Assembly: GCA_002714125.1 (NCBI GenBank)
Contig: PAWP01000070.1
Location: 27,181-45,030 of the forward strand
DNA: 17,850 nt
Source: Gammaproteobacteria bacterium
GTDB lineage: Bacteria; Pseudomonadota; Gammaproteobacteria; Pseudomonadales; Azotimanducaceae_A
Direction: 5' to 3'
The translations under genes and the position numbers were made by a program. This document shows positions 13,739 through 17,434 of the stretch, in pieces (the stretch's first letter is position 1; each line of letters begins with the position of its first letter). The notes below the pieces were generated by a model that did no database searches, was not told the DNA's origin, and saw nothing but the letters and a program-made list of their open reading frames with translations.

Positions 13739-14962
13739 CTAGAGCGGCCAGTGAATCTGGATGTTGCCGCCCCCGAAGCGAAACTCGTGCAGGCGGATCG
13801 ATGCGTGTAGTGTGAGGATGCCGCCCGACTTGGCATCAAGCATGACACGCCATGGGAGAAGCAATTTTGCTTGCCACTCCTTCTGGTTTCGATTGCGCCA
13901 CGGGCCCTGCGTGAAGGCGTGATCCACGTCAACGCGTGTGACATGTAATGCTGGTTCCCACCAACTGGTCTCGGAGGTTTTCCAGTGCAGACCCGCGAAC
14001 GCAGTGGCTTCGACTCGGTCAGTCGCGCCCAGCGCTTCGGAAGCGGTTCCGAACCAGCCAGTCTCATCGACGACCATAAGGCGCAGCCCAGCGTTGGGCT
14101 GCAGCTCGTGGAACGTGTAGCGTGCCTCCGCTGAGACGGAGTTGTAGCGCCGCTCAAAGCGAGCGGCGCGTGGTGCCGTGCCGGCGTAATCCCGAGTCGT
14201 GCGCTCATACTCCACGCGATAGGTCGTCTGCCACCGTGAGTCGCTATTCGTCAACTGGCCAGCTGCACGCAGCTGGCTCGCGTTGACGTTGATCGCGGAG
14301 CTAGCGAATTTTGCCTCAGGCGACAGATTAAGCGACAGTTGGCTTGACCAGCCGCTGCCCTCCTGCTGGTAGTGCAGGAACAGTGTGCGGGCCTCCCGTT
14401 CGTAGCGGCCGCCTCCAGATTTTTTGTCGTTATATAGGAATTCAGGCAGGACCAGAGCTGCCCGCAGTCTGCGTCCTGCCGCAGGCTGCCAATGCGCTCC
14501 AAACTGAAGATCGCTTTGCGACTTGTCGCCCGTGGCATCACCTGCGAGCGTGAAGCCAAGCTGTTCGTTTACGTTGTAGCGATACCCAATCAACATCCGA
14601 TCGAAACGGCCATCAAGGTCTTCCGCCCGTCTCATCCTGAACAAGAGGCCGTGGATGCCGGAATCAGACTTTAGGGCAAGCTGGGCTGTGGTTTCGTGAT
14701 AGAGATCGTCTCCGGTGAGGCTGCCACCGGTACCCCTCAGGCCACCTTCCCCGGGTTTGGGCAGGGCGGAGAGATGTCGGTACGAAAAGCGCTGACTGAA
14801 CGCCTCCGCGTTCAGGTCGAAGTTGCGCCCCTCCGTGATGGCAGCTCTGCGCATCGGGTGCGGCTCAAACCACATGTCTGCGAGGGTTGACCCGGACCAC
14901 AGCATAGCGATTAATAGAGGGAGGTGTACGCGGCTGACTAATGGGGTTCCTGTGCTCTGCAT
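13739..14962 (-). CDS. Exported beta-barrel-like outer-membrane protein of unknown function
   Basis: A 407-residue protein with a Sec signal peptide: MQSTGTPLVSR, hydrophobic core LPLLIAMLWSG, likely cut after STLA at residue 28. The mature part lacks hydrophobic helices and is rich in alternating polar/aromatic strands with many Arg, Trp and Tyr, for example MLIGYRYNVNEQLGFTLAGD, TLFLHYQQEGSGWSSQLSLN and VEATAFAGLHWKTSETSW. This is typical of an outer-membrane barrel of about 14-18 strands. It ends in IHWPL instead of the usual terminal aromatic residue. ATG 14962 was chosen because the signal peptide starts there; the open frame continues 58 codons upstream but would overlap the divergent selenoprotein gene. 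No family name can be given. Confidence 0.75.
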   Translation of the reverse strand: MQSTGTPLVSRVHLPLLIAMLWSGSTLADMWFEPHPMRRAAITEGRNFDLNAEAFSQRFSYRHLSALPKPGEGGLRGTGGSLTGDDLYHETTAQLALKSDSGIHGLLFRMRRAEDLDGRFDRMLIGYRYNVNEQLGFTLAGDATGDKSQSDLQFGAHWQPAAGRRLRAALVLPEFLYNDKKSGGGRYEREARTLFLHYQQEGSGWSSQLSLNLSPEAKFASSAINVNASQLRAAGQLTNSDSRWQTTYRVEYERTTRDYAGTAPRAARFERRYNSVSAEARYTFHELQPNAGLRLMVVDETGWFGTASEALGATDRVEATAFAGLHWKTSETSWWEPALHVTRVDVDHAFTQGPWRNRNQKEWQAKLLLPWRVMLDAKSGGILTLHASIRLHEFRFGGGNIQIHWPL

Positions 14963-15051
14963 GGAAGTTGTGTGCGCACGGGTGCGGTTCGATGTGGGTG
15001 CTGTTGAGTCTACTAGAACTGCTTGCCTGGGCAGCATGCTAGTCTGCGCAC

Positions 15052-15915
15052 ATGGACACTCAACCGGTCGAATATATGGCTCGGACCCGCGCGTATTACA
15101 ACGCGCAGGGCTTCGAGAAGTCCTACGCCTGGGCAACCTTTGCGGACGTGCCGTTCACGGTGCCAGCTAAACCGCTTGCGGATTCGAAGCTGGCACTGAT
15201 CACTACTGCGGCTCTCTATGAGCGAGAGGCCACAGACGCCCGTTACGTTGCCTATGCCTCCACATCAACGCCGCCCGATCGCCTTTGGGCGAGTGATCTT
15301 TCCTGGGACAAGAACGCAACGCACATGCGGGATCGGGGCAGCTACCTGCCACTCGCGCCTTTGCACCAAGCGGTGGCCGAGGGGCGCCTCGGGCAACTCG
15401 GCCAACGCTTTCTCTGCGCGCCGACGGACTACTCGATCCGCCGCACAAGCGAAGTAGATGCGCCAGCGATACTGGATCTTTGCGTCGAGGATGAGATTGA
15501 CGTTGCTCTGTTCGTGCCGTTGTGACCGGTCTGTCACCAGACTATCAGTTTGATGGCACGACACCTTGAAGCACACGGGATTCCCACGGTTATTCTCGGT
15601 TCCGCGCTCGACATAGTGACGCACTGCGGCGTCCCCCGCTTCTATTTTACCGACTTCCCGCTGGGTAATCCTTGCGGCAAACCCTACGCGGCGGAACTTC
15701 AGCGCAAGAACGTCGAGGCGGCACTAGCGATGTTCGAGTATGCGCAGGAGCCGCGCACCCTCTTTCGGTCACCGCAGTCCTGGGGTGATGATGCGTGGCG
15801 GGCCAAATATCTTGAGGTGCGGCCGGAGGACCTACCCCGGCTGCGTGCACAGGGTGAGGCACGTCGGGCGGAACGTGCGGCTCTTCGTGCTGCAGGTCGG
15901 GTTCGCAAGGAGTAG
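15052..15915 (+). CDS. GrdB/PrdB-like reductase selenoprotein with in-frame TGA (Sec158)
   Basis: One continuous 288-codon gene with an in-frame TGA at 15523-15525, codon 158. The first part (MDTQPVEYMARTRAYYNAQG, ADSKLALITTAALYERE, RTSEVDAPAILDLC, VDVALFVPL-type end) and the second part (CHQTISLMARHLEAHGIPTV, HCGVPRFYFTDFPLGNPCGK) are the two halves of the glycine/sarcosine/betaine/proline reductase selenoprotein B-like family of proteobacteria. Cys relatives read CPVCHQT at the junction; here it is UPVCHQT, giving the UxxC redox motif of this superfamily. There is no frameshift and no missing residue across the TGA, and codon use is normal on both sides. A SECIS-like hairpin follows. The physiological substrate is unknown; a thiol/selenol-dependent reductase is inferred. 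The ATG fits the family N-terminus; no strong ribosome site is seen. The alternative is a single Cys-to-TGA mutation. Confidence 0.78.
15532..15563 (+). promoter_or_regulatory. Candidate bacterial SECIS element
   Basis: A hairpin directly downstream of the TGA and inside the coding frame. CTATCA (15542-15547) pairs with TGATGG (15551-15556, with one G-U pair) around the loop GTT. A lower stem of TGTC (15532-15535) with GACA (15560-15563) closes across an internal loop. The apical GU is about 23 bases after the TGA, within the 16-37 base range described for bacterial SECIS elements bound by SelB. A competing short stem, GGTCTG with CAGACT (15528-15543), is also possible. The fold was drawn by hand, without energy calculation. 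Confidence 0.55.
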
Positions 15916-16500: not shown

Positions 16501-17434
16501 CAATGGCGCGTAGCATGGTGGCGAGATAGTTGCCGGACTGCTCCTGGGGTGTCTCACCCAGGCTCACCATGATCAGTTCGTCAGAGGGGCAAATGATCAT
16601 CACTTTGCCGCGCGCTCCGAGAGCCATGAATATGTCTTCACTGGCGAAAGGAAACCACCGCCCGCTACCGCTCCTGCCGCTTGTGGCCTGCCAGTTACCT
16701 GCCTCCGCGTTGAGCCACCACAGGAAGCCGTAGGCGCCGTTGACCTCTGGAACAAGCGGGGTAAGCGCGCTAGTTACGAACGCTTCGGAAAGAATCTGCT
16801 GCTCCCCCCATCGCCCTCGGTTCAGCCAAAGGTGCCCGAGCCGCGCGATGTCCCGGTGGGTTGAACGGATGACCGGCAAGGGGCCCTGGCTGCCAATCTG
16901 AATCCAACCTCTTTCGTTAGCAGGCCAATCGAAACTCAGCCCTAATGGAGTTTTCAGGTGTTCGTTGTAGAAGTCGACCGGAGCTTGCCCGCTCGCAAGC
17001 CAGACCAGCCCGGTCAGCGAGTTCAGAATGAAGTTACTGTTGTAGCGCCAGGCGGTGCCTGCGGGTTCGGTACCGGCGGTCATATTGAGTACATGGCCAA
17101 TCGTCGCATCTGGCGCAATTTCCGGGTGATGGACCGGCATCCATTCGCGGATCAGATCCGATGAGTGCAAAAGCCCTTTGGTTTCTGCGATGCCGAGCAA
17201 TGTGGCGCCAAGCCCCTTGGTGATAGAGAAGAGGTGAGTGGTGTCCTCGACGCTCCCCCGATAACGCTCGAACACCACCTGGCCGCGCTTTGCGAACAGA
17301 ACCCCGTGGCGCTCCTTGATGCTGAAGATCAAGTCCGCCGCCGACTCCAGTGCTTCGCTTGATAGTTCCAGTGCCTGTGGATCGGCAGTGGTCCATTGCT
17401 TGCCCGGGAATTGCATCGTAGTCGTCTGATCCAT
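16475..17434 (-). CDS. Serine hydrolase of the beta-lactamase / class C esterase family
   Basis: A 319-residue protein of the PF00144-type fold shared by class C beta-lactamases, D-Ala-D-Ala carboxypeptidases and EstB-like esterases. The nucleophile motif SxxK is present as Ser70-Ile-Thr-Lys73 (LFSITKGLGATLLG). The second motif is Tyr131-Asn-Ser (AWRYNSNFIL), the YNS form seen in esterase-like members. The later segment YGFLWWLNAEAG and the C-terminal SGRSGSGRW, in the place of the KTG/HTG box, fit the family. There is no signal peptide at ATG 17434, so it is probably a cytoplasmic esterase/hydrolase rather than a secreted lactamase. The frame is open 58 codons further upstream, but that part is not family-like. 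Only a weak AGAGA precedes the ATG. The substrate is unknown. Confidence 0.85.
   Translation of the reverse strand: MDQTTTMQFPGKQWTTADPQALELSSEALESAADLIFSIKERHGVLFAKRGQVVFERYRGSVEDTTHLFSITKGLGATLLGIAETKGLLHSSDLIREWMPVHHPEIAPDATIGHVLNMTAGTEPAGTAWRYNSNFILNSLTGLVWLASGQAPVDFYNEHLKTPLGLSFDWPANERGWIQIGSQGPLPVIRSTHRDIARLGHLWLNRGRWGEQQILSEAFVTSALTPLVPEVNGAYGFLWWLNAEAGNWQATSGRSGSGRWFPFASEDIFMALGARGKVMIICPSDELIMVSLGETPQEQSGNYLATMLRAIGDVTGASP

Follow-up and report, generated by a model that had tools for sequence, protein, structure and literature searches.

Does the segment 15052..15915 (+) of the 17,850-nucleotide stretch of gammaproteobacterial DNA analysed here (hereafter the window) hold two short genes or a single gene interrupted by a TGA that is read as an amino acid, and, in the latter case, what kind of enzyme would it encode? 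A first-pass annotation had proposed a GrdB/PrdB-like selenoprotein with selenocysteine (Sec) in a UxxC redox motif. We examined this proposal by comparison with homologues, with the Sec machinery of related genomes and with the RNA structure downstream of the TGA.

One reading frame across an in-frame TGA

In the ORF listing, one frame is common to ORF 15052-15525 (157 aa) and ORF 15550-15915 (121 aa), and the first-pass annotation was exact in both coordinates and reading when it placed only TGA 15523-15525 and eight codons between the two. These eight codons translate as PVCHQTIS, and the start of the second ORF is a mechanically called TTG. Reading through gives a protein of 287 residues with a single TGA (15523..15525, +), i.e. 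at residue 158 in the context ALFVPL-U-PVCHQTISLMAR, followed by the stop codon at 15913-15915. The TGT at 15532..15534 (+) encodes Cys161, the second residue of the U-P-V-C motif.

Scanning genome contigs returned one locus, L001, from the gammaproteobacterial MAG SB0665_bin_27, where a gene that is 64 % identical and just as long carries a TGA at the same codon. The two genes align over 287 codons without a gap. Identity amounts to 101/157 residues before the TGA and 83/129 after it, and the differences at codon positions 1, 2 and 3 (42, 33 and 98 before; 36, 27 and 82 after) are dominated by the third position in both parts, i.e. coding conservation is found on either side. Since dS after the TGA was saturated, dN/dS was not compared.

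Of 8000 candidates scored in the protein search, 1140 matched at E <= 0.001, and among the 120 listed, identity was 48-54 % except for P0002 (99 %). All 14 full-length homologues aligned, drawn from these 120, have Cys at residue 158, the site at which the first-pass annotation had proposed an alignment, and Cys161 is invariant among them. Such Cys PrdB-like proteins, e.g. from Bradyrhizobium, are 48-54 % identical among the full-length matches listed and have CPVC in place of UPVC; Cys is also found at the TGA site of loci L021-L024. A TGA occupies the site in all 26 loci aligned with the window, a set selected for carrying UP[VI]C[HN]Q.

Searching with the N-terminal half gave 22 short homologues, 20 of which end exactly at residue 157, the database being silent on the identity of the stop codon; of the remaining two, P0140 continues through CPVC and P0142 is out of frame. 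Likewise, of 2162 matches 120 were listed, and many of these are fragments of 120-131 aa that correspond to the C-terminal half. P0002, an N half 99 % identical to the window protein, breaks off at this position too, and P0143, a C half that also shows 99 % identity, differs from the window in one residue; a sequencing error is therefore unlikely. Viral contigs contained no relative.

Selenocysteine machinery and lineage

The genome of L001 harbours tRNA-Sec (anticodon tca), selA, selB and selD, with selB and selA adjoining on the tRNA-Sec contig. In a wider, order-level sample, 26 of 390 genomes held a match to the window protein, and 39 of the 41 matches carry one TGA, including L049 with an additional TAA at its C-terminal end. 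The position of the TGA in the motif was verified where the locus DNA was at hand, the other order-level matches being a stop count alone. The TGA form is present in 24 of these genomes, and 23 of the 24 have selA. The exception, G667, may be an incomplete genome, given that its TGA gene is almost identical to the one in G684, where selA is present. Of the two genomes with a match lacking TGA, G716 has selA and G532 does not, and selA was found in 2 of the 19 tested genomes without a match. The class-level sample gave matches in 9 of 369 genomes, with TGA forms in five of the nine; here selA was present in all five genomes with a TGA homologue, in none of the four with a match lacking TGA and in none of 20 without a match (29 tested), the completeness of the sampled order- and class-level genomes not being stated. 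As far as the relatives tell, sel genes accompany the TGA forms, and the window gene is not a lone, decaying TGA variant among Cys-only relatives.

On three contigs, PrdB-like TGA genes and selA are no more than about 3 kb apart, i.e. G362:C123 (PrdB-like 16694-17311, selA 20156-21493), G266:C42 (5328-5645 and 6887-8227) and G389:C2 (20467-21216 and 18896-20242). The L001 genome (G001) itself contains four PrdB-like genes, on contigs C277, C139, C92 and C49, with one in-frame TGA each; two distant copies, with UPLCTRT and UPACTRA at the site, keep a hairpin with a G-bearing loop.

The lineage of the window was approached through its PdxA, which is nearest to that of G001 (67 %), followed by G732, G441, G748, G470 and G522 (64-58 %), the next being at 47 %. 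Five of these six genomes, all but G732, hold five of the six closest PrdB-like TGA genes together with selA. In a tree of 50 proteins (29 Sec and 21 Cys, the latter including 17 of 117 eligible Cys proteins), the window protein joins that of L001 (support 97/87) within a ten-row, all-Sec group (95/80). Three changes between Sec and Cys are needed on this tree, two of them forced by well-supported branches. Judged by its PdxA relatives and by the tree, the window would belong to a Sec-using lineage.

The earlier proposal of Sec158 in a UxxC motif with CPVC in Cys relatives is supported: relatives carry a TGA at this very codon and possess Sec machinery, each of the 14 full-length homologues aligned has Cys there, and the hairpin described below covaries. 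We are highly confident that 15052..15915 (+) is one complete gene for a PrdB-like selenoprotein in which UGA 158 encodes Sec. The second ORF (15550..15915, +), which matches the C-half fragments among the homologues, represents the C-terminal part of the same protein, and the gene was very probably split by mechanical calling and is a selenoprotein gene of an already known kind.

Family assignment and the question of a partner subunit

Of the two names in the GrdB/PrdB-like label of the first-pass annotation, PrdB-like is the fitting one. The best curated model is NCBIfam TIGR04483 (PrdB; E 2.1e-16), with similarity spanning residues 35-230, while PF07355 (GrdB) reaches 10.6 bits with the whole protein and 12.7 with the N half against a gathering cut-off of 22. 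Other GrdB-type models, including TIGR01918, are likewise weaker than TIGR04483 and under their cut-offs, and no curated model tried scores the window protein above its cut-off. TIGR04483 matches 48 of the 56 rows of the family alignment at E <= 0.001, some rows being half proteins. What the window protein has in common with GrdB, the selenoprotein B of glycine, sarcosine and betaine reductases, is a weak similarity and Sec in UxxC; it differs in lying under all GrdB cut-offs and in the partner family PF09338, found in one of 26 relatives' genomes. The predicted structure (AlphaFold, mean pLDDT 86.2, pTM 0.88) had no Foldseek match in the PDB at E <= 0.001, and searching the PDB by sequence yielded nothing at E <= 1.

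D-proline reductase consists of PrdB paired with the pyruvoyl protein PrdA. On the pyruvoyl group, the title of a work cited by PMC1088965 is in agreement. Clostridial PrdB, as represented by TIGR04483, resembles the window protein in carrying Sec in UxxC, but the window protein scores 60.1 bits where the equivalog cut-off is 300, and the relatives differ in their PrdA content: the PrdA model TIGR04480 had no match in 32 of 33 relatives' genomes, seven of the 33 being class-level, and the partner-subunit family PF09338 had none in 25 of 26 order-level genomes, genome completeness being unstated in both cases. The sole genome with a match in both searches, G591, was hit in the same two genes, the TIGR04480 match being below cut-off; the two models are thus related, and the search is able to find such a gene. 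G591 is also the one genome of 26 with a match, below cut-off, to the PrdD model TIGR04482, and its match to the window query is very weak (E 6.4e-4), with the motif UGTC, as in glycine reductase. Fourteen control genomes had no match to either PF09338 or TIGR04480.

No constant neighbour was found either. Across the neighbourhoods of 19 loci (the window, L001 and L066-L082), no neighbour family occurs in more than four, and both genes flanking the PrdB-like gene in the window are on the other strand. At 7883-10188 of L001, a luciferase-like oxidoreductase and an amidohydrolase lie close to the PrdB-like gene, and likewise in L072 and L074; we considered them as partners and rejected them, three of 19 loci being too rare. 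The window itself contains oxidative and degradative genes on both strands between 439 and 13540, i.e. a flavin monooxygenase-like gene, PdxA, two luciferase-like oxidoreductases, a zinc dehydrogenase, an epimerase, YtoQ, an enoyl-CoA hydratase, a type II haloacid dehalogenase (over the NCBIfam cut-off) and PhyH. These are followed by a 465-residue ORF (13739-15136, -; TTG start as called), which shares 85 bases with the start of the PrdB-like gene and was matched by neither Pfam nor NCBIfam at E <= 0.001.

Could the protein nevertheless be a true PrdB, still a selenoprotein, with a PrdA that is too diverged to be recognized or lies in unsequenced parts? The best family match and the names given to relatives by their sources, which, where given, often refer to D-proline or glycine reductase and in several cases read 'D-proline reductase (dithiol) PrdB', point in this direction, as does the unstated completeness of the searched genomes. 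Against it stand the large shortfall from the equivalog cut-off, the near-absence of matches to two models that both detect the G591 genes, and the lack of a constant neighbour, and we consider it unlikely. Based on these comparisons, the window gene is probably not a D-proline reductase. The missing partner subunit in relatives and the missing constant neighbour lead to the reading as a stand-alone redox enzyme, to which we assign slightly less than an even chance.

By analogy with the known PrdB and GrdB proteins, the motif and homology suggest that the product would be a UxxC selenol/thiol redox protein, in which Sec158 may act as the nucleophile that attacks the substrate, Cys161 would resolve the resulting selenenyl-sulfide and a thioredoxin-type donor might recycle the protein. 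In contrast to the D-proline and glycine reductases, it seems, judging from the relatives, to have no pyruvoyl-type subunit beside it, and so would most likely work by itself or with an as yet unknown partner, on a substrate for which no pyruvoyl Schiff base is required.

The first-pass annotation had seen particular interest in an occurrence outside the clostridia, which is, however, not new. Marine forms have been on record since 2005, with 42 Sec-containing PrdB proteins with UXXC in the Sargasso Sea (PMC1088965) and 235 Sec and 110 Cys forms in the GOS data (PMC2398784). Proline reductase accounts for 6.4 % of marine selenoprotein genes (PMC9402790), a Sec-containing proline reductase is listed for Anaeromyxobacter and a Geobacter (PMC1794560), and PrdB is listed as UxxC in PMC13188914 and PMC9312934. 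As described in the cited passages, the oceanic 'proline reductase PrdB' (PMC1088965, PMC2398784) shares Sec in UxxC, the existence of Cys forms and SECIS-like hairpins with the family of the window, and, compared by description, the window gene probably belongs to the same family. Two differences are the SECIS loop of the window, which lacks a G, and the lack of a PrdA match in 32 of 33 relatives' genomes, the cited passages being silent on a missing PrdA; in the open-licence literature, we found no title or abstract opening on a PrdB without PrdA.

The downstream hairpin and its apical loop

A SECIS-like hairpin spans 15533..15557 (+), with a stem formed by 15537-15542 and 15548-15553 and lower pairs between 15533-15534 and 15556-15557. 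SelB and Sec-tRNA would read UGA 158 as Sec, directed by this hairpin 8 to 32 bases downstream. In an alignment of the window and 26 loci over 50 bases from the UGA (26 distinct rows), RNAalifold places a single hairpin in the consensus fold, in whose columns 95.7 % of cells are paired and three pairs have both partners changed. The covariation score of 0.309 was reached in none of 500 shuffles (mean 0.185), and sliding the partner by 1-3 columns lowers pairing to 25-37 %. Two of five covariation measures are within the shuffles, i.e. pairs changed on both sides (reached by 284/500) and further pair types (352/500). When codons were replaced by uniformly drawn synonymous ones, 0 of 2000 replicates reached the observed pairing; with synonymous codons from the same column, a severe null since it contains the constrained codons themselves, the observed 132/135 standard pairs were reached in 91 of 2000 and the observed number of Watson-Crick pairs in 17 of 2000. 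Judged by this last null, the evidence for pairing falls short of overwhelming.

Of the 27 aligned Sec loci, 24 retain the full set of five apical pairs and L051-L053 each break one; none of four Cys loci retains the full set, two of them keeping four pairs. Folded singly over 50 bases, 21 of 27 loci form the hairpin. Outside this alignment, L025 and L026 keep four and five of the five apical pairs, respectively, and these two as well as the distant L027, L030, L031, L032 and L058 all have a G in the loop. The window alone, over 48 bases from the UGA, forms the hairpin at -13.7 kcal/mol (z -1.93), while the best fold of a longer stretch (15510-15580) is another structure (z -1.45), both z-scores being modest; in the window, the pair 15537-15553 is non-standard (C-A) and 15534-15556 is U-G. 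Rfam found no SECIS family at the site at E <= 10 in either the window or L001, and since L001 gives none either, Rfam is uninformative here; the window contains no tRNA and no Rfam match at gathering threshold.

Bacterial SECIS elements commonly have a guanosine in a small apical loop (PMC1088965). The loop of the window, TATCA (15543..15547, +), has no G and is the only exception among the 27 aligned loci, all 26 Sec relatives having G as the second loop base. This G makes residue 165 a Val (GTN) in 26 of 26, where the window has Ile (ATC). The residue varies in Cys homologues (V 68, I 30, L 17, T 6, M 2 and A 2 of 125), and all four Cys loci also have the loop G, which is therefore not diagnostic by itself. 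The G is not counted as defining. What speaks most against efficient Sec insertion in the window gene is nevertheless its odd loop, which would mean either weak decoding or a shifted SelB/SECIS pair.

Weak decoding could mean that the gene is a dying selenoprotein gene, in which the loop G was lost, the UGA is mostly read as a stop and decay is under way. The uniqueness of TATCA among the aligned loci would fit, as would a tree branch longer than that of the L001 gene (0.51 vs 0.26). Yet the apical stem is intact with its five pairs, one of them as G-U, the frame shows no further stop and no gap against L001, the codon-position pattern after the TGA is still protein-like, and an intact C half differing in one residue is known from P0143, so that we regard such decay as quite improbable. 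A pair of distinct genes in the segment, or a Cys gene misread in sequencing, is hardly credible: mechanical calling does yield two ORFs, but the short homologues stop at the same position in 20 of 22 cases, relatives with selA carry the identical TGA, and the conserved PVCHQ right behind the TGA precedes the start of the second ORF.

Returning to a functional selenoprotein, the window gene is probably one of the marine 'PrdB' selenoproteins. Considering both the partner subunit and the loop, we tentatively propose, at somewhat less than an even chance, that these are stand-alone UxxC selenoenzymes without a pyruvoyl subunit, and that the SelB/SECIS pair of the window lineage has drifted such that a loop without G is recognized. 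The loop of the window offers a natural test of how strictly SelB requires the loop G. Should the partner subunit be absent as a rule, a considerable part of the selenium used in the sea would serve an unknown reaction.
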